From NCBI GenBank assembly GCA_029006135.1, contig JAQXGE010000036.1, positions 1 through 42,687 of the forward strand: DNA of 42,687 nt. Direction: 5' to 3'. The translations under genes and the position numbers were made by a program. This DNA comes from Oscillospiraceae bacterium. Its GTDB lineage: Bacteria; Bacillota; Clostridia; Oscillospirales; Ruminococcaceae. The notes beneath the pieces are model-generated. The model was not told the origin of the DNA. It did not search any database and was given only the letters and a program-made list of their open reading frames with translations. This document shows, in pieces, positions 27,745-41,586 of this stretch (positions within the stretch are counted from its first letter, which is position 1; each line of letters opens with the position of its first letter).

Positions 27745-30700
27745 TCATTCCCCTTCAAGAGGCACATCAATCTCCTGCGAGAGCGCAAACGAGTAAATGG
27801 TCAATTTTGTGACGGGGACCCGGAACCGCATGGCAAAGGCATAGCGGTAAAGACGCAGCTGGGCGCCGTACTCCTGAACGTAATAATTCGGATTTTTACT
27901 TTGATCGGTTTTATAATCAAGAATCTCAGCGTGATCATCAAATACCAGGACAAGGTCAGCAATTCCCTGAACCAGCACCTGTGCCTGTGCCGCCGGGCCG
28001 GACGCCCCCGCAAGGGCAGGCACCGCACGGCAGGCCGGCAGAGACGTGATAAACGGTGTTTCCCGCAGCACCTCATCGGCCTGGGAAATGCGCCGCCATA
28101 CAGCGCTTTCAAAAAACGGACGCACAACGTCCAGATCCAGTGCCTGTGCCAACGCCGGGTCGAGCAGCTTGAGCCGGATTTGACGCGCCTTTTCCTCTTC
28201 CAAATCAACCGTCTTTTCATCGAACGGCACACTCTGCAAAAAGGCGTGGATTGCCGTGCCGCGCTCCGCTCCGGTGAGGCCGGATTTTTGCAGGAAAGCC
28301 GGACGCTGGGCTACAGCCTGTGCCGCCGCATGGGTCACGGCGCTGACACTGACCTTGACGGGTACTTCCCGCAGTGCTTCCCCGGGGCTGTGCCAGTCAA
28401 AGCGTTCAAGAACCGCCTGTTCAAATTCCTCGTCCGGTTCGGCTGCGGCAGTCGGTTCCGCCGGTTCCAGTTCCTCGGGCGGTTCAACAAGGCGGATGGT
28501 GAGCGGCGCATCAGTTTTGACATGGTGCGGAAGAAGTTCGCTGTACTGCCAGAGTTCATCGCTGTCCGGGTGAAGCAGCGCCGCCGTGAGCAGCCAGAAA
28601 GACCAGCTTCCTGCGCCTTGAAGAAGCGCCGGGCCAACCGCACCCGAGCAGGCGCAGAGTGCCGGAAGTTTGAGCTCACTCTCCGGTTTTTTCATCGGCA
28701 CCGTGATGATCAGGGCATCTTTTGCGCGGGTCAGTGCAACGTAAAGGATTCGCATTTCCTCGCTCAGCGTCTCACTTGTGATGGTCTGCGCGAGCGCCGC
28801 GTAGGGCAGTGTCTTATAGCGTTCCGTCCCGTTCCCCGCGCGGAGCATCAGCCCTACGCCGAGTTCCCTGTGGCAGAGCACTGGCCGATTCGTATCGCTG
28901 AGGTTGAATTTATGGGACGTTCCCGCCACAAACACCACCGGAAACTCAAGGCCCTTGGAGCGGTGTACCGTCATAATTGTAACGCACCCGGGCCGGGTCT
29001 GCCCAGACGCCGAGGGATTCGGCACCCCGCCGCCCGCCTTGGCGGCATCCATGGCGCGAATCAGTGCAGGCAGTCCCCGCGCGCCGGCCTGTGCTGCCCA
29101 GGCCGCAAAGCCGCGCAGGTCTTCCCGGCAGCGCTCGCCGTCCGGCATTGCGCCGACTGCGGCCAGATAGCCGGTCCGGGCAAACAGTTCCCCGATCAGT
29201 TCCCCCACCGGAAGCGTGCGCGCCAACCGGCGGTAGACAGCCATATCCCGCAAAAACGGCGCAAAGCGTTCCCCGCCCTGATGAAGCACCGCCGCATACA
29301 GACTTCCGCCCCGCGCGGTGCTTCGCAGCTGTACCAAATCATCCGGCGTATACGGATACATCGGGCTGAGCAGGACGGCGGCCAGCTCCACATCCTGTGC
29401 GGGATTGTCCAGTATGCGGAGCAGTGAGGCAAAGGGACGCACATGGGGAGCATCCAGCAGATCCGCCGCCGTGTCGGCATAAACAGGAATTCCGCAGTCG
29501 GTGAGTGCCGCCTCATACACCGGGAAATCACCTCTGCTGCGCAGGAGGATGCAGAAATCCCCATAATCGCAGCCGCGGGTTGTTCCCGGTGCAGCGTCCC
29601 GAACGGCAAAGCCGTCTTTCACCATTGCTGCAATGCGCGCCGCAATGGTGCGGGCCTCGCCGGCCGCATCGGCGCCTGCAATCGCATCCAGTTCGCAAAG
29701 TCCCTGATAGCTCTCCCCTGCCCGGCCCACCACAAGGCGCTGACCGTCACCGTAATCTATACCGCCCAGTTCACGGGAAAACAGCAGTTCAAAGAAATAG
29801 TTGATTCCCCGGATGACGCCCGGTGCGCTGCGGAAATTGGCATCAAGCGCAATGGTGGACGATTCCCGATACGGCACCGTAACCTGTTCCGGATAAGGTT
29901 GCCAATCGGTCTGCTTGGCAATAAAGACCGAAGGATCCGCCTGACGGAAACGATAGATGCTCTGCTTGATATCCCCCACGAAAAACAGGTTGGAGGCATC
30001 CGGCGAAGCGAGAGAAAAATAGATGGCATCCTGAAGCGCGTTGGTGTCCTGATATTCATCCACAAGAACGGCCGCATAGCGGGCGCTGACGGTTTTGCAC
30101 AGCGGCGTGCGCGTGCCGTCCGGCATCTGGAGAAGTTCAAGCGTCAGATGTTCCAAATCGGCGTAGTCCAGCACTTTTTCAGCCTTTCGTGCCTCGAAAA
30201 AGGCCGTACGGAAGTTTTCAACCGTGCGCACCAGTGCATCCACCAGCGGTGCGGCGCGTCGGCGGTCCTCATCATACTCGGCAGCCGTGCAGACAAGGAT
30301 ATTATCCTGAATGGCCGCCACCTGCTTTTTGGCCCGGTCGCGCAAATCTGAGGCAGCAACTGCGGCCGCGCTGGAGCTTTTCCCGCCCGGCACGCGGCCG
30401 GCTCTGCGCCAGTGTCCTGCTTCTTCGAGTGCGGGCAGAACGCTGTCCCATCCGCCGCGGTTCAGATGGTCCGCCAGCAGGCGCAGTCGGTCCTCATCAT
30501 CAAAAAGCACGGCGGTCAGTGCGCGGTCAGCCGCCAGATCCTGCGCGGCAATCCGCTGCGCCGCACGGATCAGTTCGAGCGCACTCTGTGTCCGGGCGGC
30601 AGCGGATTTGAGCAGCGTTTGCCCCCAGGGAGTTTCCTCGGGAGGGACATTGCCGTGCCACATGGCCGCGAACTCCTCCAGCGCAGCCGCCGGGTGCGGC

Positions 30701-31257
30701 AGGGACTGCGTGAAATCGTAGAGCTGCTCGACCGTGCGGCTGGCCGTATCATCGGTGCGGCCGCGGTCATACAAATCGGCAAAAGCGCAGAAATCCGGGT
30801 CAGTATAAGCCTGTTCGAGCACAGAAGAGAGCGTTTCCTGCCGCAGCCGGGTAAGGGTAGCATCATCGGCCACCGTAAAGTCCGGCGGAATATCCAGCGA
30901 TGAAAAATTCTGCTGTACAAAGTGCAGGCAGAAAGAGTCCACCGTGCCGATGGAGGCGCGCTGCAGGCGCATCTGCTGGCGGCGAAGGTTGGTGTCTCCG
31001 GGGCGGGCGCGGATCTCATCGGTCAGGCGGCGGGCAATATCCGCACGCAGTTTGGCGGCCGCCGCATTGGTAAAGGTCATAATGAGGAGGCGGTCAGCGT
31101 CCGCCGGGTTTTCGGGGTCCGCAATCAGACCCACCACACGCTCGACCAGAACCCTCGTCTTGCCGGAGCCTGCCGCCGCGGAGACGAGCAGGCTCCCGCC
31201 GCGCGCATGGATTGCCGCCGACTGAGCCGGGGTAAACTGAACTTTTTCTTCCGCCAT
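27745..31257 (-). CDS. addA: ATP-dependent helicase/nuclease subunit A (AddA)
   Basis: AddA is the main helicase-nuclease subunit of AddAB, which resects double-strand breaks for RecA loading. The 1170-residue length is normal. It is a UvrD-like helicase with Walker A AAAGSGKT (27-34), IMTFTNAAAAKLR (Ia), VDEYQDTN (II), GDIKQSIYRFR (III) and VTIMTVHRSKGLEFPVVFVAG (V). The C-terminal PD-(D/E)XK nuclease has GIADLVLVFDD...ILDYKTDQS. The start ATG 31257 has AAAGGAA upstream. It follows addB by 68 bp, with an intrinsic terminator in the gap, so part of the transcription stops between the two subunits. Confidence 0.97.
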   Translation of the reverse strand: MAEEKVQFTPAQSAAIHARGGSLLVSAAAGSGKTRVLVERVVGLIADPENPADADRLLIMTFTNAAAAKLRADIARRLTDEIRARPGDTNLRRQQMRLQRASIGTVDSFCLHFVQQNFSSLDIPPDFTVADDATLTRLRQETLSSVLEQAYTDPDFCAFADLYDRGRTDDTASRTVEQLYDFTQSLPHPAAALEEFAAMWHGNVPPEETPWGQTLLKSAAARTQSALELIRAAQRIAAQDLAADRALTAVLFDDEDRLRLLADHLNRGGWDSVLPALEEAGHWRRAGRVPGGKSSSAAAVAASDLRDRAKKQVAAIQDNILVCTAAEYDEDRRRAAPLVDALVRTVENFRTAFFEARKAEKVLDYADLEHLTLELLQMPDGTRTPLCKTVSARYAAVLVDEYQDTNALQDAIYFSLASPDASNLFFVGDIKQSIYRFRQADPSVFIAKQTDWQPYPEQVTVPYRESSTIALDANFRSAPGVIRGINYFFELLFSRELGGIDYGDGQRLVVGRAGESYQGLCELDAIAGADAAGEARTIAARIAAMVKDGFAVRDAAPGTTRGCDYGDFCILLRSRGDFPVYEAALTDCGIPVYADTAADLLDAPHVRPFASLLRILDNPAQDVELAAVLLSPMYPYTPDDLVQLRSTARGGSLYAAVLHQGGERFAPFLRDMAVYRRLARTLPVGELIGELFARTGYLAAVGAMPDGERCREDLRGFAAWAAQAGARGLPALIRAMDAAKAGGGVPNPSASGQTRPGCVTIMTVHRSKGLEFPVVFVAGTSHKFNLSDTNRPVLCHRELGVGLMLRAGNGTERYKTLPYAALAQTITSETLSEEMRILYVALTRAKDALIITVPMKKPESELKLPALCACSGAVGPALLQGAGSWSFWLLTAALLHPDSDELWQYSELLPHHVKTDAPLTIRLVEPPEELEPAEPTAAAEPDEEFEQAVLERFDWHSPGEALREVPVKVSVSAVTHAAAQAVAQRPAFLQKSGLTGAERGTAIHAFLQSVPFDEKTVDLEEEKARQIRLKLLDPALAQALDLDVVRPFFESAVWRRISQADEVLRETPFITSLPACRAVPALAGASGPAAQAQVLVQGIADLVLVFDDHAEILDYKTDQSKNPNYYVQEYGAQLRLYRYAFAMRFRVPVTKLTIYSFALSQEIDVPLEGE

Positions 31258-31275
31258 GGCGTTTTTCCTTTCACT

Positions 31276-31297
31276 AAAAAGCCGGGCAGCACCCGGC
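31276..31297 (-). terminator. Terminator between addB and addA
   Basis: GCCGGG-TGCTG-CCCGGC followed by TTTTT on the minus strand. It ends about 20 nt before the addA start and probably attenuates addA relative to addB. Confidence 0.8.
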
Positions 31298-31325
31298 CGG
31301 TCCTTTGAACGGAAATGTCAGAGTT

Positions 31326-34300
31326 TTATGATTCCTGAGCATCGGTTTTTTCAAAAGGGTCACCGCTCACCGTGACGGTTCGCTCCCCTTCCCCGTCCAT
31401 GTGACGGCAAACCGCACGGTAATCACACCAGGCACAGGGGCTTTTGCCGCCAGGAGCCAGCGGAGAGGCCTCGATTTTCCCGCTGTAAAGGCTGCGGGCC
31501 ATCTCGAGCAGCAGTTCATCCAAGTGGTCCCGGATGCGTTCCAGCTTTTCCCTGTCCGCAAGTCCCTTTTTGGCGCTGGCAGTGGTCGGCTCGCCGGTTT
31601 TATTGCTGAAGGCAAGTGGGACAAAATTCCCGGAGGCATGGGTATCCATGGCGTGATAAATGCTCGGTTCATCGAGGAGCAAACCTTCGAGCGGGTAGGT
31701 GCGCGCAGGCTTGCCGGCCTCCGTGTCCTCTTTGGGGCGCGCTGCGCTTTTCTGCGATGGGTCAGCCAGCAGATACTCAACACCGGCAGCGGTGGCTCCG
31801 GGGAACAGCGGTTCCCCATTGCGCTCAAGGGTAAACAGGTAGAGCAACATCTGGCAATCCAGTCCGCAGTAAACCTCGCGCAGGTCAAATTCCTTGCTGC
31901 CGGTCTTGTAGTCCACCACACGCAGGTAGGTTTTTTCCCCGAGCGTCATAGCATCCACCCTGTCCACCGTGCCGACTACCCGCACAGTGTGGCCGGCGCC
32001 GTCTTCAAGCGTAACAGGGTCCACGCGGGGTGCGTCCGGATTTTTCTCGTCAGGGCGGTCATCAATGCGCAATTCAAATGCCACGGGGCGGAACCCGGAC
32101 TGGCGCATATCGCGCTGAATGAAGCCGAGAAGTTCCTCGAGGTTCCGGGAGATGCGCTGCAGAAGATACTGCATCCGCGTACCTGCGCCGGGAAGGTTGG
32201 CATCCGCGTATTCCTTTACAAGAGCCTCGACCAGTGCATGAATCTGCTCAGGAGAGAGAGAAACAAATCGTTCGCCCTCGCGCCGCAGAGCCTTTTCCAG
32301 TACCCAGTGCGTGAGTGTGCCGCTGATGTTGGGGGCAAGCTCCGCTTTCTGGCGGGGGCGCACGCCCAGAACATACTGCATAAAGTAGCCGAACGGACAG
32401 CTCACATACTTTTCAAACCGCGTGGGGCTGATACGGATCCCGGAACCAAGCAGGCGTTCCAGCGTCCGGGTATCGTCCACCTTTTCCGGTTCCCGCTCAG
32501 CCGCACGCTGAACGGCGGCAAAGCCGGGCACCGACCGGGATGTTCCCTCCAGCTTTTTCAGTGCATCCTCCACTGCCGCACGGCGGGGTGTGTTGTGCTG
32601 CCACTCACTGCCCAGCAAATCCAGCGCAGCGGCAGGGGTCGCCGCCATATCTGCTGGATTCACCGCGGCCTGCGGCACATTCAGCAGTTCCAGAACCGGA
32701 GCCAGCACGGCGCTCACCGGCATTCCGGCCGCGCCGCCCGGCCAGCTCAGCCACAAAAAGTGCCGGGGTGCCGTGAGAGCCTTATAAAAGCAGACCTGTT
32801 CGCGTATGACACGGTTCTCAAAACAGTCGGGCAGTTCCGCACCCTGTGCAATCATGGCATCACGGTCCGAATGGGTCAAAAGGCCGGTGTCACCGGGGGT
32901 TTGGGGGAATTCTCCTTCCGCAAGCCCGAGCACAAATACCGCCTCGGTCTCGGGCAGGCGCATCCGGCCGGCCGTGGTAAAGATTACGCTGTCCATGCTC
33001 TGCGGAATATGGCCCAAATCCGTTGTGCGGAGCAGGAGTGTGAACAGGTCATCGTACTCTGCGGGCGTTATCGGGTCATCCCCGGGGAGCAGGCGAACCA
33101 TCTGGTCAAGCAGAAACGTCACAACGTTCCATTCCCGCAGTGCTTCCTCTGCGCCGGGGAGCTCGCCTTGGCTGCGGAGTTCTTCCGTCAGCGAGGTGAT
33201 TGCCTGCTCTGCGCCCAGTTCCTGCAGGAAGAAATAAATCTGGCGGGTAAGCCGTTCCACGCCGGCATCCCTGCTGCGTTCCATGAACGTTTCGATTTTG
33301 GGGATGAGAAAACTGCGGGCCTCCTCGGCATTTTTTAAATCGGACTGATCCTGTTCGCTGAACCGATCGGTGTAGCCGGAAGGATTGCGGGTGAAAGGCT
33401 GACGCCAGTCGGACGTGCGGAGCGGCCAGGTATAGGCATAGTTTTCCAGCGCGCAGAGAGACTCCTCACTCAGAGAGGTCAGTCCGGTTTTGACCAGCCG
33501 CAGCACAGCCCCGGTGGTGATGCCGCCGCGCAGAAGTTCGAGTGCCGCATGAACGGCACGAGCGGGCGCGGTATTTTCCGGCGTGGTTGGTTCATCAAAA
33601 AAGAGCGGAATGTCCTGCAGGCGGAATTCATACTGGATGGCCGGCAGATAGGTTTCCGCCGTGCGGCAGACAACGGCCATTTTCCCATAAGGAATCCCGG
33701 CACGGGCTTTTGCTTTGACGGCGGCGGCCACGGCCTTCGCTTCCTGCTGACGGCTGTCCGCGCAGTAATACACGATGGAAGGTTCTTTTTCCTGTGCCGT
33801 TTGCTCGGGCAGATAGGTCGGGTCCGCAAGAAGCAGGGAAAGTTCCGTCAGTGCCGGGGAATCCTTGTGACGCAAGTCCTCACTCAGATGTTCAACATGA
33901 CAGGGAACCCCGGCGCGCTGTGCCATTGCCATCAGCCCATTTGCCACGCGGCGGGCGCCGCTGAACAGTCCCATGCCTCCGTCCCGTTCACTCAGTCCGT
34001 CACAGCAGAGTGCCACCGTTACATCCGCCGCGGCAAGCATTGCCGAAACCAGTGCGCGCTTGGACTCGTTAAACGTATCAAATTCATCAATGTACACAGC
34101 GCACCCTGCAAAGAAATCCGGCTCTGCCACCTGTGCCGCGCGGCGCACCTGATCGCTGGGGTCCATGGCCGTTCCCGCCAGAAGGCTCTCATAGCTGCCA
34201 TAGATGAGCGCCAGTTCCGACAGTTTATCGTGATCGGCGCCGGGCGCAGACGCATAGACGGCCAGCGTTTCAGGCCGGATTCCTGCGCTTTTCAGTTCGT

Positions 34301-34670
34301 CAATCGTCTCGGCCGCTTTCTGGCAAAATGCCGTGCTGCGGCGCTGGCGGCTGTAATACACGACTTTATCGAGCATTTCGTCCATCGCACGGCGCACCAG
34401 CACGGTGCGGCCGGCCTCCGTCAGCGTGGGCACTGCCGCACCGCCGTAGCGCCGAAGAAGCGTCTGGGCCAAAGATGTAAAAGAATAACTCTCCACATAG
34501 CCGGAAAGCGTATCACCCAGTGTATGGTAGAGTGCGCCCTCCGTTGAGGAAGTGAATTGTTCCGGCACAATGAGAATACTGCGTTTTCCCGCTTCGGCAC
34601 GCAGGCGCAGTTCTTCCCGCAAACGAACCGACTTGCCGCTGCCCGAAGGGCCGAGAATCAGTGTCAGCAT
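31326..34670 (-). CDS. addB: ATP-dependent helicase/nuclease subunit B (AddB)
   Basis: AddB is the second subunit of AddAB; it recognises Chi and cuts the opposite strand. The 1114-residue protein has an N-terminal Walker A GPSGSGKS (7-14), a degenerate helicase core and a C-terminal nuclease domain with VDYKTGSKEF. Cysteines for the 4Fe-4S staple are present: one before the nuclease domain (YVSCPFGYFMQYVLG) and three at the end (CAWCDYRAVC). The start ATG 34670 has AGAGG 9 nt upstream. It is 68 bp downstream of spoIIR and precedes addA, the normal addB-addA order. Confidence 0.97.
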   Translation of the reverse strand: MLTLILGPSGSGKSVRLREELRLRAEAGKRSILIVPEQFTSSTEGALYHTLGDTLSGYVESYSFTSLAQTLLRRYGGAAVPTLTEAGRTVLVRRAMDEMLDKVVYYSRQRRSTAFCQKAAETIDELKSAGIRPETLAVYASAPGADHDKLSELALIYGSYESLLAGTAMDPSDQVRRAAQVAEPDFFAGCAVYIDEFDTFNESKRALVSAMLAAADVTVALCCDGLSERDGGMGLFSGARRVANGLMAMAQRAGVPCHVEHLSEDLRHKDSPALTELSLLLADPTYLPEQTAQEKEPSIVYYCADSRQQEAKAVAAAVKAKARAGIPYGKMAVVCRTAETYLPAIQYEFRLQDIPLFFDEPTTPENTAPARAVHAALELLRGGITTGAVLRLVKTGLTSLSEESLCALENYAYTWPLRTSDWRQPFTRNPSGYTDRFSEQDQSDLKNAEEARSFLIPKIETFMERSRDAGVERLTRQIYFFLQELGAEQAITSLTEELRSQGELPGAEEALREWNVVTFLLDQMVRLLPGDDPITPAEYDDLFTLLLRTTDLGHIPQSMDSVIFTTAGRMRLPETEAVFVLGLAEGEFPQTPGDTGLLTHSDRDAMIAQGAELPDCFENRVIREQVCFYKALTAPRHFLWLSWPGGAAGMPVSAVLAPVLELLNVPQAAVNPADMAATPAAALDLLGSEWQHNTPRRAAVEDALKKLEGTSRSVPGFAAVQRAAEREPEKVDDTRTLERLLGSGIRISPTRFEKYVSCPFGYFMQYVLGVRPRQKAELAPNISGTLTHWVLEKALRREGERFVSLSPEQIHALVEALVKEYADANLPGAGTRMQYLLQRISRNLEELLGFIQRDMRQSGFRPVAFELRIDDRPDEKNPDAPRVDPVTLEDGAGHTVRVVGTVDRVDAMTLGEKTYLRVVDYKTGSKEFDLREVYCGLDCQMLLYLFTLERNGEPLFPGATAAGVEYLLADPSQKSAARPKEDTEAGKPARTYPLEGLLLDEPSIYHAMDTHASGNFVPLAFSNKTGEPTTASAKKGLADREKLERIRDHLDELLLEMARSLYSGKIEASPLAPGGKSPCAWCDYRAVCRHMDGEGERTVTVSGDPFEKTDAQES

Positions 34671-38117: not shown

Positions 38118-38879
38118 TTACCCTTTGCGCGGCGCCATTTCGCACATATCCCGCCAGTAGCGTTTGGGGGCATGATTCATCTGGCGTTTCTTGTCGCACC
38201 GTTCTTCGATAGTGACGGCATCAAAGAATTTTTTCCACAAAGTCTGCCAGTCCAGTTCTTCCTCACCCGCGTGCGGGTCATAATGTTCCATCGTGAGATA
38301 CTGCACCCGCCCGTTTTGGCGCAGCAAGGCCATGCCGTGGGTCGCATCAAAAATAAGGAAATCCTCATCCGGCAGCCGGTCGCAGAAGTGCGCCCGCAGC
38401 AGCGGCAGGATGTTATTTTTAGGGTGAATCTCGGTACCCAGCATGGTACCGCGCTGTTCAAAGCGGATAAACTCAAGATATTTTCCCGCCTCATTTGCCA
38501 CGCTGCGCGCTAAGTCAAACGCTGCACAAACGTCCGGGTCGCCAGTCATGTGCACCGTGCCCGGGCCGTGTTCAAAACACAGGCGCACAAAGCGGAGCAA
38601 AATCAATTCTTTTTCCGGCTCACAGGAAAGAAAACCTTTCGTGACGCGGTCCTGCACCTCAGAACCGAGCCTGCGCAGCCCCGCCGCAACGCGGCGTGCC
38701 TTTGCCGAGTCCGTAACAATCTCAAGGGAATCAAAAAACGTCATCTGGCCGCGTTCGGGGGACCAGATTCCAGCCGGAATTTCTTTGCGGGAAAAGCTCG
38801 CAAAAACACAGCACAGATATCCCTGAAAGGTGCCGTCATAGCGATAGACCGTATCGGTCACATTCGTCTGGTAATGCAT
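38118..38879 (-). CDS. TIGR03915-like putative DNA metabolism protein
   Basis: This 253-residue protein opens MHYQTNVTDTVYRYDGTFQGYLCCVF. The internal blocks GFLSCEPEKELILLRFVRL, GTMLGTEIHPKNNILPLLRAHF and FLIFDATHGMALL, and the C-terminal basic APKRYWRDMCE, fit the TIGR03915 / DUF4130 family, which is almost always paired with a radical SAM protein of the TIGR03916 type. This is exactly the arrangement here: the start at 38879 lies inside the end of the upstream gene (22-bp overlap). AGGAGG is 7-8 nt before the ATG. The biochemical activity of the family is not established; a DNA repair or modification role is inferred from the partner. Confidence 0.85.
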   Translation of the reverse strand: MHYQTNVTDTVYRYDGTFQGYLCCVFASFSRKEIPAGIWSPERGQMTFFDSLEIVTDSAKARRVAAGLRRLGSEVQDRVTKGFLSCEPEKELILLRFVRLCFEHGPGTVHMTGDPDVCAAFDLARSVANEAGKYLEFIRFEQRGTMLGTEIHPKNNILPLLRAHFCDRLPDEDFLIFDATHGMALLRQNGRVQYLTMEHYDPHAGEEELDWQTLWKKFFDAVTIEERCDKKRQMNHAPKRYWRDMCEMAPRKG

Positions 38880-40222
38880 TGTACGGCCTCCTGTCTGACT
38901 TCTTGAACCGCGCAGCACGGGTCCATTCCCTCCCCTATCAGCTTGTGGACAACGGGCGAAGCATCCGGGAGCGGGCGAAAAATATAATCATCGAGTGAGA
39001 GCTGATGAACCTCAAGACCCACCGCCGTTTTATCCAGCAGAGCCTCCGCAATCTGCTGGCGGGCAGCACGCACAGGCGCGCGCCCGTCACAGGTGATGAA
39101 AAACTGTGCCCGTTTAAGCACAACGCCCATACGCTTCAGTTCCGGCATTCCAAGATGCTGCCAGCGCCGTGCCGACAGAATCCGCCGCACGCTTTTGACA
39201 CCGATGCCCGGCACGCGGAGCAGCGTTTCCCTTGGTGCTGTATTCACTTCAACAGGGAAAAATTCAGGATGGCTGACCGCCCATGCCGCTTTTGGGTCCA
39301 AGTAGGGGTCAAAATTGGGGCAGTCCTCACTGAGCAGTTCCGACGCGGAAAAATGGTAATAACGCATTAGCCAGTCCGCCTGATAGAGCCGATGTTCCCG
39401 CAGCAGCGGCGGCTGAACAGAACGGGCCGGCAGCCGGGAATCCGTATTGATGGGCAGATAGGCGGAATAAAACACACGCTTCAAATCATATTTTTTGTAA
39501 AGCGCCTCGCTCAGGTTCATAATGTGCAGGTCCGTTTCCGGACTGGCTCCTATAATCATCTGGGTGCTTTGCCCGGCCGGTGCAAAAGAAGGGGCGTGCC
39601 GGTAGACTGCCATTTCCCGGCGGCTTTGCGCGCTCTGAGCGGCAATTTGACCCATAGGACGCAGGATGGCGCTTCGTTTTTTGTCCGGAGCAAGACGGCT
39701 GAGGCTTGCCTCACTGGGCAATTCGATGTTGACAGAGAGGCGGTCCGCCAAAAGTCCCAGCTGCCATACCAGTTCCGGGGATGCACCGGGGATGGTCTTG
39801 GCATGAATATAGCCGTGGAAGCGATACTCCTCACGCAGGAGCCGCAGGGTTTCAATCATCAATTCCATCGTGCGGTCCGGCGTTCCCAATACGGCGCTGG
39901 AAAGAAAAAGTCCCTCAATATAATTGCGGCGGTAAAATCCTATTGTCAGTTCGGCCAGTTCCCGCGGTTCAAACGTTGCGCGGGGAACGTCATTGGACTT
40001 GCGGTTGACACAGTAGCTGCAATCATAACAGCAGGCGTTGGAATACAAAACCTTGAGCAGAGAAACGCACCGTCCATCCGGCGTAAAGCTATGGCAGACG
40101 CCCACAAACCTGCAATTTCCCACACGGCCTCTTTCACCGGAGCGGTCCACGCCGCTGGAGGTGCAGGCCACATCATATTTGGCGCTGTCTGCAAGAATCT
40201 CCAGTTTTTCCGCCAGTTCCAT
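38858..40222 (-). CDS. Putative DNA modification/repair radical SAM protein (TIGR03916-like)
   Basis: This 454-residue radical SAM enzyme has the cluster motif C64-X3-C68-X2-C71 (CCYDCSYC), preceded by additional conserved cysteines (C20, C37, C43, C52). The C-terminal helix-hairpin-helix LLRVPGIGVKSVRRILSARR typically binds DNA. The N-terminus MELAEKLEILADSAKYDVACTSSG is the usual start; GGAGG lies 8 nt before it, so the start was set at 40222 and not at a possible upstream extension to 40309. It shares a transcript with the TIGR03915-like gene. Family names suggest repair or modification of DNA, but the reaction is unknown. It is transcribed from the region at 40362-40386, immediately beyond the repressor gene. 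Confidence 0.9.
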   Translation of the reverse strand: MELAEKLEILADSAKYDVACTSSGVDRSGERGRVGNCRFVGVCHSFTPDGRCVSLLKVLYSNACCYDCSYCVNRKSNDVPRATFEPRELAELTIGFYRRNYIEGLFLSSAVLGTPDRTMELMIETLRLLREEYRFHGYIHAKTIPGASPELVWQLGLLADRLSVNIELPSEASLSRLAPDKKRSAILRPMGQIAAQSAQSRREMAVYRHAPSFAPAGQSTQMIIGASPETDLHIMNLSEALYKKYDLKRVFYSAYLPINTDSRLPARSVQPPLLREHRLYQADWLMRYYHFSASELLSEDCPNFDPYLDPKAAWAVSHPEFFPVEVNTAPRETLLRVPGIGVKSVRRILSARRWQHLGMPELKRMGVVLKRAQFFITCDGRAPVRAARQQIAEALLDKTAVGLEVHQLSLDDYIFRPLPDASPVVHKLIGEGMDPCCAVQEVRQEAVQCITRRM

Positions 40223-40361
40223 CTGTTTTTCCTCCAAAAGGGTATAAGAAACACACCCCGCCGTTTTTTGGTGAACCGTGAGGTCCTGATTCACGGCGGC
40301 GTGTGACAAAAAGTGTATTAAACGGGATTCTTCATTATTCCCTATCGCGCAGAACGTCCGG

Positions 40362-40405: not shown

Positions 40406-40433
40406 AAAAAGCCAAAAGTTCTTACCACTTGGC
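40406..40433 (-). terminator. Terminator overlapping the end of the repressor gene
   Basis: GCCAA (40429-40433, minus) pairs with TTGGC (40411-40415) around the stop codon, then TTTTT. The stem is weak to moderate and includes the last codons of the repressor gene. Confidence 0.6.
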
Positions 40434-41054
40434 CTTGGTCTCGACTACCTTGCCTGCAATATAAAGATGATCAAGATCCTCACCGCGGATGATCAGATCT
40501 TCATAGCTGGGATTGAAGGGGTGCAGCACCACCGCGTTGCCTCTGACCATGTATTTTTTGAGTGTGCCGTTCCCATCGGTTCCATAAACCATAACGCCAA
40601 GGTCACCGTTTTCAAGTGTGTTCTGACGGTGAACCAGAGCAAGGTCCCCATCCGAGATGCGCGGTTCCATGCTGTCGCCCTTGACTACAAGATAAAAGTA
40701 GTTTTCCGGGTCCTTAACGCTGGCATACTCACTGCCATAGTCTTCCTCAAAAGCGAGAGAATCGTAACCGGCGCGCACCGTACCAACAACAGGAATCAGA
40801 CACTGGGTATAGCGGCTGAACGCGCTGCGGCCCACTGCCCCGCGCGGCTCCGGAGCGCTGTTTTGCAGGCCAAGCAGTGCATCCGCAGTGGTATCCAGAA
40901 TTTCCGCGAGGCGGGCGATGGTCTGCGGGTCGGGGGTGGAACGTCCCGTTTCCCACTTGCCCACAGCCTGCTGTGTTACCCCCAAAAGCTTTGAGACTTC
41001 AGCCTGACTGTAACGCTTGGCTTTCCTGGCTGCTTTCAATCGTTCAGCAAACAT
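40422..41054 (-). CDS. XRE-S24 self-cleaving LexA/CI-like repressor
   Basis: This 210-residue repressor has an XRE/Cro helix-turn-helix at about residues 3-58 (YSQAEVSKLLGVTQQAVGKWETG) and an S24 peptidase domain. The A95-G96 cleavage site in VGTVRAGYDS, nucleophile Ser128 in VKGDSMEP and general-base Lys166 in GTLKKY are all in place. RecA filaments trigger self-cleavage in such proteins. Unlike true LexA it carries a Cro-type HTH, so it is closer to phage CI or HdiR-like regulators, yet no phage genes are nearby. The start at 41054 was chosen because the HTH begins there and AGAGG lies upstream. It is divergent from a small membrane-protein gene, with three ACAAC-N5-GTTGT dyads in the shared promoter region, one over its own promoter. 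Confidence 0.9.
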   Translation of the reverse strand: MFAERLKAARKAKRYSQAEVSKLLGVTQQAVGKWETGRSTPDPQTIARLAEILDTTADALLGLQNSAPEPRGAVGRSAFSRYTQCLIPVVGTVRAGYDSLAFEEDYGSEYASVKDPENYFYLVVKGDSMEPRISDGDLALVHRQNTLENGDLGVMVYGTDGNGTLKKYMVRGNAVVLHPFNPSYEDLIIRGEDLDHLYIAGKVVETKAKW

Positions 41055-41120
41055 TGCGTTTAACCTCTGCTTTCTTTCCGGCAGAATACCAAAGGTACCC
41101 TTACCGGCTTCGTTTTCTTC

Positions 41121-41149
41121 ATTATACAACCAAAAGTAGTTCCTGTAAA
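41121..41149 (-). promoter_or_regulatory. Promoter of the XRE-S24 repressor gene
   Basis: TTTACA (41144-41149), 17 bp, TATAAT (41121-41126) on the minus strand. Dyad site 3 (41126-41140) lies in the spacer, consistent with autorepression. Confidence 0.85.
41126..41140. promoter_or_regulatory. Operator-like dyad 3, ACAAC-N5-GTAGT
   Basis: One mismatch from the perfect dyads at 41200-41214 and 41234-41248. It occupies the spacer and the first -10 base of the repressor promoter. Confidence 0.65.
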
Positions 41150-41193
41150 GAGGATTTTTCAAAAAATTTTTGCTTCAAAGTTGTTTTTTCAGC

Positions 41194-41222
41194 TTGACAA
41201 CAACCGTCAGTTGTATTATTAT
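41194..41222 (+). promoter_or_regulatory. Promoter of the small membrane-protein gene
   Basis: TTGACA (41194-41199), 17 bp, TATTAT (41217-41222). Operator 1 fills almost the whole spacer. Confidence 0.88.
41200..41214. promoter_or_regulatory. Operator-like dyad 1, ACAAC-N5-GTTGT
   Basis: Perfect 5-bp arms (ACAACCGTCAGTTGT) directly after the -35 of the membrane-protein promoter. It is the likely binding site of the XRE-S24 repressor. Confidence 0.75.
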
Positions 41223-41233
41223 GAAATTATTAA

Positions 41234-41248
41234 ACAACCACACGTTGT
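41234..41248. promoter_or_regulatory. Operator-like dyad 2, ACAAC-N5-GTTGT
   Basis: Perfect arms, extendable to AACAAC/GTTGTT, near or just downstream of the expected transcription start. Its centre is 34 bp from that of dyad 1, a distance suited to cooperative binding. Confidence 0.75.
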
Positions 41249-41310
41249 TCGTTAGACCGTGTGCAGCAGATTGAATTTCTGTCAAAGTTTTTATTTCGGG
41301 AGGTTTTCTT

Positions 41311-41586
41311 ATGAACTGCAAAACCTTTAAAACCGTCATCTGCAAGTTTCTTCTCGTCTTTTTGGCATTTTCCGGGCTGATGCTCGTATGCAGTGCGGCG
41401 CAAAGCGAAATTACACTGGCCGCTGCGCTGGGCGGTGAGGTTCTGATTCTGATGGGTATAAATATTCTGCTGGGCGTGCTTGAAGAGAAAGATGCCCGGG
41501 CCGAGAAAGCCGGTTCCCGCAGAGCTGCGGCCGACGTGCAATGCCCGCCGCAGCTTCGGGTAGTCCGCGGCGGAAAGGCCGCTTAA
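41311..41586 (+). CDS. Small two-helix membrane protein controlled by the divergent repressor
   Basis: This 91-residue protein, not assigned to a family, has two hydrophobic segments (about residues 9-30, VICKFLLVFLAFSGLMLVCSA, and 36-57, AALGGEVLILMGINILLGVL) separated by a short polar loop. A basic cytoplasmic-type tail of about 33 residues follows. GGGAGG lies 7 nt before ATG 41311. It has a consensus promoter with two operator-like dyads and sits opposite a self-cleaving repressor, so it is probably silent until the repressor is cleaved. The position recalls yneA opposite lexA in Bacillus (an SOS division inhibitor), but there is no LysM domain and no sequence evidence for that function. 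Confidence 0.75.
   Translation: MNCKTFKTVICKFLLVFLAFSGLMLVCSAAQSEITLAAALGGEVLILMGINILLGVLEEKDARAEKAGSRRAAADVQCPPQLRVVRGGKAA

Follow-up and report, generated by a model that had tools for sequence, protein, structure and literature searches.

Our computational analysis implies that the S24-type protein encoded on the minus strand at 40422..41054 of the DNA presented above is very probably the SOS master repressor of its lineage, a non-canonical LexA of phage-repressor type that would operate through the mechanism proposed below. The DNA is contig JAQXGE010000036.1 of an Oscillospiraceae bacterium (assembly GCA_029006135.1), and the whole stretch of 42,687 nucleotides is called the window here. 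Judging from sequence, LexA appears to have given way to a self-cleaving, phage-type repressor as the DNA-damage master switch in Gemmiger, Faecalibacterium and their relatives. An earlier note on this DNA had suggested that a chromosomal SOS-like circuit could lie here, and this idea is now supported by dyads before recA, uvrBA, rmuC, a topoisomerase gene and an SRAP-like gene, as well as by the lack of a LexA match over the cut-off in 40 genomes carrying the repressor. The system looks like the main SOS regulon rather than the local switch which that note had seen.

We propose that a dimer of the repressor would bind ACAAC-N5-GTTGT through its cI-type helix-turn-helix and, once bound, would block its own promoter and those of a DNA-repair gene pair, a small membrane protein, recA, uvrBA, rmuC, a type II topoisomerase and the SRAP-like gene, and in some Gemmiger also that of a phage-type cluster. 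DNA damage would give rise to RecA filaments, these would induce self-cleavage at Ala95-Gly96 by means of Ser128/Lys166, and the regulon would be turned on. The small membrane protein would most likely delay division and would then be removed via its conserved C-terminal Ala tail. We infer the DNA binding, cleavage, induction and checkpoint function of the locus products.

The repressor consists of an XRE domain (Pfam HTH_3) and a Peptidase_S24 domain. Its open reading frame as listed, 40422-41162, gives 246 residues from a TTG start; the actual start is most likely the ATG at 41054, which gives 210 residues, because 20 aligned relatives also begin there, and therefore the dyad at 41126-41140 lies upstream of the gene and not inside it. 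The Ala-Gly cleavage site and the Ser/Lys dyad noticed earlier in the single protein proved to be strictly conserved: A95-G96, S128 and K166 are identical in all 81 aligned repressors. The recognition helix residues Q28, Q29, A30, V31, G32, W34 and E35 are invariant in the same alignment, and K33 is found in 80 of the 81. Against TIGR00498 (LexA), the curated cut-off of which is 110.95 bits, the protein scores 68 bits with an alignment that covers the S24 half only, and at E<=0.001 the Pfam scan found HTH_3 and related XRE models in it but not the model of the LexA winged-helix N-domain. Its best match by sequence among solved structures is LexA (3k2z).

The two divergent promoters and the three dyads described in the earlier note were confirmed. 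The leftward promoter of the repressor gene (41121..41149, minus strand) has TTTACA at 41149-41144 and TATAAT at 41126-41121, and the rightward promoter (41194..41222, plus strand) has TTGACA at 41194-41199 and TATTAT at 41217-41222, each pair with a spacer of 17 bases. Operator O1 (41126..41140, ACAAC-N5-GTAGT, one mismatch) lies in the spacer of the leftward promoter, the exact operator O2 (41200..41214, ACAAC-N5-GTTGT) in that of the rightward promoter, and O3 (41234..41248), also exact, just past the expected rightward start site. These three are all the matches of the window at up to one mismatch, and they are packed into 123 bases. Their number alone says little, as shuffled sequences hold 1.06 such dyads on average and 6 of 100 shuffles reach three; chance origin is nevertheless unlikely because of the clustering, the placement in promoters and the conservation in relatives.

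This conservation was followed in the best 80 of 127 repressor loci from one scan of genome contigs, with 60-88% identity, mostly from Gemmiger, Faecalibacterium, Fournierella, Pygmaiobacter, Ruthenibacterium and Anaerofilum. Among them a dyad close to the start of the repressor gene, as in the case of O1, is common. When the 350 bases before the gene are read (120 bases in L018), the expectation of the earlier note for the repressor's orthologues is borne out: 79 of the 80 loci hold one or more dyads at a tolerance of one mismatch, 65 hold an exact one, and 58 hold at least two that do not overlap. The sole repressor locus without a dyad, L047 (Gemmiger sp. An194), has a transposase-like gene upstream, recognized by eye, which is perhaps a natural disruption of the promoter.

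The genome-wide search suggested in the earlier note was carried out on the source genome (2.01 Mb in 87 contigs, 84% complete), with the reversed dyad as the control pattern. The exact dyad occurs at eight places, two of them in the window, compared to none for the control; about 1.4 would be expected from base composition, and the Poisson probability of eight places is about 9e-5. The other six stand before recA (C72:8094), before uvrB, followed by uvrA (C45:20610; uvrA and the preceding recQ were named by eye), before rmuC (C1:10107; named by eye, as the NCBIfam scan gave no family), before a parE/gyrB-type topoisomerase gene (C33:83655; NCBIfam matches below their cut-offs), before an SRAP/YedK-like gene (C83:18001; one weak NCBIfam match, otherwise by eye) and before the phage-type cluster (C61:16197). 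The topoisomerase dyad fills the spacer of TTGATA-N17-TATACT, the cluster dyad sits between the -35 and -10 elements of a perfect promoter, TTGACA-N17-TATAAT, and the SRAP-like gene has a second copy with one mismatch 29 bases on. The motif had been derived solely from the promoter of the repressor, and so these targets amount to a fulfilled prediction.

The 40 genomes with the repressor, many of them metagenome-assembled, are called carriers here, and the source genome is counted beside them. A recA match is present in 36 of them (over the cut-off in 34), and of the 30 recA loci read, over 500 bases upstream, 23 have an exact dyad and one a dyad with one mismatch. In all 23 exact cases TATAAT or TATACT begins 23-24 bases after the first base of the GTTGT half-site, which thereby doubles as the -35 region. 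In the wider family the dyad was found at four of 30 recA loci: that of the source genome, two with 93-97% DNA identity to carriers, and L129, the best carrier match of which is 84% over part of its length. Among the other 26, the exact GAAC-N4-GTTC box lies within 120 bases of the match in one and its one-mismatch version in five; one of these 26 belongs to a carrier (G155, same recA locus as L163).

Further exact sites in carrier genomes, apart from those at recA and at the repressor, were read in 31 stretches (32 sites, among the sites listed). Seven stand before uvrB, three before a topoisomerase gene (L212 is probably a fourth) and four before phage-cluster genes (L213, L217, L225, L228). 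In all seven uvrB places the site lies just behind the -10 element, at an equal offset in six and 6 bases further in L211. The uvrB loci of 30 carriers outside the closest Gemmiger gave 29 stretches, of which 27 were read after two partial matches had been excluded; a dyad with up to one mismatch was found within 300 bases in 12 of them (exact in three), compared to a background of 6% of random 300-base windows taken from the loaded loci, target loci included. Eight of nine Faecalibacterium uvrB loci have it, between positions -51 and -67 relative to the family match. Another of the 32 sites belongs to L221 (G177:C1:123900-128000), where a Y-family polymerase-like gene, with NCBIfam matches below cut-off, is preceded by an exact operator; this lies behind TTGACA-N17-TATACT and 8 bases before the longest open reading frame of the gene.

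A match to TIGR00498 over the cut-off was found in none of the 40 carriers and not in the source genome, where the incompleteness of the latter and the many metagenome-assembled carriers have to be kept in mind; of the 147 genomes sampled from the order, 101 have one. The repressor itself, at E<=1e-30, occurs in two of these 147, the source genome and one with a 41% match, and it therefore belongs to one branch. Four genomes of genus g4 in the same family (G055, G091, G112, G132) show no TIGR00498 match at E<=0.001 and no repressor relative at E<=1e-30, and a further one, G146, shows only a weak TIGR00498 match (4.6e-6) and likewise no repressor relative at that threshold. The S24/XRE loci read in eight stretches from other genomes of the order that lack LexA over the cut-off differ in their recognition helices, and the exact ACAAC-N5-GTTGT is absent from the 260 bases before them. 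At three of the order's loci, L329, L331 and L332 (family f7), a further XRE-S24 protein is conserved; these genomes likewise have no LexA over the cut-off, repeated TTTACA/TTGTC-like elements lie upstream as judged by eye, and the protein is possibly another LexA replacement.

A number of observations weigh against the reading of the protein as a master repressor. With one mismatch allowed the source genome is not enriched in dyads (34 places vs. 51 for the control), and therefore we trust only exact or near-exact sites that are backed by relatives. The 31 carriers that are not of Gemmiger type have a slight excess of exact sites (71 vs. 57). No dyad with up to one mismatch was found at six of the 30 carrier recA loci (two Ruthenibacterium, two Anaerofilum, one Pygmaiobacter, one Fournierella) and within 300 bases at 15 of the 27 uvrB loci outside the closest Gemmiger. 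Among the 32 sites listed, 12 are without an assignable target and at least four lie inside long open reading frames in a chance-like manner (L203, L205, L224, L231). The repressor promoter bears a single dyad with one mismatch at six F. prausnitzii-group loci (L035, L037, L038, L040, L041, L044), and no equivalent of the small membrane protein was chosen in these loci. Finally, eight repressor loci with 3-5 kb of downstream sequence lack the radical-SAM gene of the repair pair. The exact sites number 55 vs. 17 for the control in ten Gemmiger-type genomes including the source genome, and 6 vs. 13 in 12 family members of other genera; judging by this excess per group, the regulon seems widest in Gemmiger and small in some relatives.

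The conservation of the dyads at recA, at uvrB and at the repressor promoter leads us to reject the view that they are chance matches, although their count in the window alone is not significant. One could argue that the dyads are bound by another regulator and that the S24 gene is merely one of its targets, since the dyads are known from DNA alone and many carrier genomes hold other S24 proteins; in L208 (G190:C26:21100-25200) an exact dyad even lies 127 bases upstream of the open reading frame of a second XRE-S24-type gene, the recognition helix of which is different. However, the repressor promoter bears at least two dyads in 58 of 80 loci, the recognition helix and the motif are both conserved, and the motif is absent at 26 of 30 wider-family recA loci, of which at least the one in G155 belongs to a carrier. 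Thus we consider such a regulator very unlikely.

Less probable again is that the protein is the CI of a decayed mobile element, that is, an immunity repressor of a prophage or of an integrative and conjugative element, with the other dyads being due to chance or to other elements. Its best PHROG match is indeed the phage transcriptional repressor phrog_4 (1.2e-43), and the sequence of its N-domain resembles the P22 C2 and 434 repressors. However, no phage genes flank the locus, just as the earlier note had stated, the chromosomal neighbours recur in relatives, and recA carries the dyad in most of the loci read. The relatives in phage records are at most 38% identical, when we set aside one 67% record that is unannotated, 4.6 kb long and carries the same two repair genes as the chromosomal locus, and those in IMG/VR are at most 37% identical over the full length. 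Because the phage relatives are distant and the chromosomal neighbours recurrent, this view, already under strain from the recA and uvrB sites, was rejected. The least probable of the three is that the repressor governs an accessory damage or heat regulon like that of HdiR and not the main SOS system. The XRE-S24 architecture is shared with HdiR, some relatives have few sites, and for S. thermophilus cinA-recA is reported to be under HdiR control, within a small regulon made up mostly of error-prone polymerases (PMC8565304; for this paper as for PMC12946183, PMC6851548 and PMC13148647, our statements refer to the consulted sections). Yet control of recA by HdiR is argued against in PMC1592510, which quotes the HdiR operator as ATCAG...CTGAT, different from ACAAC-N5-GTTGT, while in our case recA and uvrB are among the targets and no carrier has LexA over the cut-off. 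The S24 protein as SOS master repressor remains the reading that we prefer.

The next gene downstream of the repressor (38858..40225, minus strand) belongs to TIGR03916 (rSAM_link_UDG, putative DNA modification/repair protein), which we take to correspond to COG4277, and its partner (38118..38918, minus strand) to TIGR03915 (putative DNA repair protein); on the other side cutC follows the small gene. The radical-SAM/UDG gene lies near the repressor in 66 of the 80 loci. In 63 it shares the strand of the repressor and follows downstream, at some loci only after a gap of several hundred bases. In three Pygmaiobacter loci (L073, L074, L079) it lies behind the divergent small gene and so still beside the same operator region. 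It was not found in 14 loci, six of which have about 1.1 kb or less of downstream sequence. Elsewhere in the window, at 27745-34670, two large adjoining nuclease/helicase-like genes were recognized by eye as addA and addB, and there is no dyad before them.

The divergent membrane protein noticed earlier is encoded at 41311..41586 (plus strand), so that the operators stand between it and the repressor; it has 91 residues, two hydrophobic segments and the C-terminus -GGKAA. No Pfam, PHROG or NCBIfam family matches it over the cut-off, and a match to LysE stays below its own. With the start codon, ribosome site and hydrophobicity as guides, a positional equivalent was chosen in 70 of the 80 relatives (L083 is doubtful) and none in ten, namely L018 with its little flank, L047, L066, L081 and the six F. 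prausnitzii-group loci. The 16 proteins compared have 13-42% identity to that of the window, and their ends are far more uniform in the whole set: 66 of the 70 end in Ala and 48 in Ala-Ala (RAA in 29, HAA in 11), in tails that contain 17% Ala before the C-terminus, and after clustering at 60% similarity 43 of 45 still end in Ala. A basic tail with a small hydrophobic end presumably acts as a ClpX-type C-terminal degron. By analogy alone, we propose that the protein is an SOS cell-division checkpoint with a C-terminal degradation tail. Like SosA and YneA, it is a small membrane protein divergent from the gene of an SOS repressor. In S. aureus the sosA gene is likewise divergent from lexA, and the turnover of SosA depends on its C-terminus, a proposed proteolysis signal (PMC6851548). 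However, SosA has one transmembrane segment and an extracellular C-terminus (PMC6851548), whereas the protein described here has two hydrophobic segments, a basic -AA tail and a C-terminus that is probably cytosolic.

From the C61 operator on, the phage-type cluster encodes a phrog_36 transcriptional regulator, a terminase large subunit, a portal, a major head protein, a connector and tail genes, and fuller versions exist in two G. formicilis. When 41 genomes were searched for its terminase, 21 places came up, spread over 17 of them. The six most similar terminases (at least 76%, that of the source genome included, all of Gemmiger type) have an exact operator within 1.4 kb upstream, and one of the six, that of L246, has two. 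The other 15 (at most 73%) show no upstream dyad with up to one mismatch, where 1.4 kb was read for 12, 0.6 kb for one and practically nothing for two. Four of the six operator-bearing clusters (L232 (G000:C61:12000-31900), L234 and L295-L298) have upstream, in the same orientation, a gene that by eye is cls-like, and in one of the six, G176, the terminase alone was recognized in the stretch. In PHROG scans, 18 cluster open reading frames from three genomes, a part of those present, were either assigned to families of head, tail, connector, packaging or regulator proteins or were unknowns, and no integrase was seen among the 18.

The cluster is a candidate gene transfer agent (GTA), with a decayed prophage or a PBSX-like element as equally possible alternatives. 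GTA-like DNA packaging was seen in Gemmiger formicilis, to which PMC12946183 assigned no gene cluster, and no operon homologous to the Faecalibacterium agent FpGTA was reported from Gemmiger there. Like FpGTA, whose phage-like head and packaging genes sit together on the chromosome (PMC12946183), the Gemmiger cluster is chromosomal and found in the same family; unlike the presumed FpGTA I terminase loci, it bears an SOS operator. Control of FpGTA by the same operator found no support: seven terminase (TerL) genes with 86-97% mutual identity from seven of eight Faecalibacterium genomes, presumed to represent FpGTA I, are preceded by 1.5 kb in which a search at up to one mismatch found no dyad; scattered two-mismatch dyads occur upstream of them, and in three a one-mismatch dyad lies downstream of the terminase. 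Weak phrog_2 matches in open frames of about 740-840 residues were dropped as terminases, because by eye they resembled a RecD2-type helicase. It could be, and we suggest this only tentatively, that a phage repressor was captured as SOS master in the Gemmiger/Faecalibacterium branch, perhaps independently of Bacteroidetes, and that in Gemmiger one or two SOS operators still govern a domesticated phage-type cluster (regulator, terminase, head, tail and probably lysis genes), which would be the Gemmiger gene transfer agent. If this is true, DNA damage would directly trigger repair, a division checkpoint and DNA export in Gemmiger.

These bacteria deserve attention, and Gemmiger is common in the gut. 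As a genus, Faecalibacterium reaches high abundance in the human gut (PMC12946183). The operator sequence allows prediction of damage-induced genes, prophages and GTA-like clusters in the Gemmiger/Faecalibacterium branch, and the locus offers its small membrane protein as a candidate division checkpoint. No description of a Faecalibacterium or Gemmiger SOS regulator was found at the level of titles and abstract beginnings in the open-licence literature; PMC3998124, which treats the SOS meta-regulon of the gut, nowhere names Faecalibacterium, Subdoligranulum or Clostridia in its main text, and the consulted sections of PMC13148647 on the Francisella FddR mention neither Faecalibacterium nor Firmicutes.

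When compared to known repressors, the helix-turn-helix is related in sequence to those of P22 C2 and 434. The 434 repressor has Gln-Gln at the start of its recognition helix, as Gln28-Gln29 here, and recognizes the half-site ACAA; its operator, however, is ACAA-N6-TTGT, whereas we observe ACAA-N7-TTGT and a chromosomal regulon. HdiR of Streptococcaceae is likewise an XRE-S24 repressor of a LexA-less Gram-positive group, set apart by its operator. With canonical LexA (COG1974, TIGR00498) the protein shares the C-terminal S24 domain with Ala-Gly and Ser/Lys, the predicted place at the top of an SOS regulon and a divergent small gene as in lexA-sosA (PMC6851548), but it differs in the N-domain, in the score below the cut-off and in the operator.

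The closest likeness is to the non-canonical LexA of Bacteroidetes, which has HTH_3 and S24 domains, Ala-Gly and Ser-Lys, and an N5-spaced dyad in organisms without canonical LexA, and the family of which was found by BLASTP only in Bacteroidetes (PMC8565304). Those marks of such a protein in PMC8565304 that can be read from sequence are also found here: HTH_3 with S24 and the cleavage residues, no canonical LexA over the cut-off, and its own gene together with several SOS genes including recA under a dyad of fixed spacing. The kind is therefore already known; the lineage, the operator, the gene content and the link to a phage-type cluster are new as far as we searched. The Bacteroidetes operators are GGA-N5-TCC or CTAA-N5-TTAG in contrast to ACAAC-N5-GTTGT, the phylum is another one, and uvrBA and rmuC, not named as targets there in the consulted sections, as well as the divergent small membrane protein, are further differences of the system described here. 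The Bacteroidetes regulon comprises recA, SRAP (COG2135), topoisomerase IV, Y-family polymerases and a UDG repair operon, a two-gene system (COG1573-COG4277) (PMC8565304). That phage repressors can take over SOS control is proposed in the same paper, and a second broad regulon of this kind governed by a phage-type repressor would strengthen the proposal; its content converges with that of Bacteroidetes in recA, SRAP, a type II topoisomerase and the UDG-linked repair pair.

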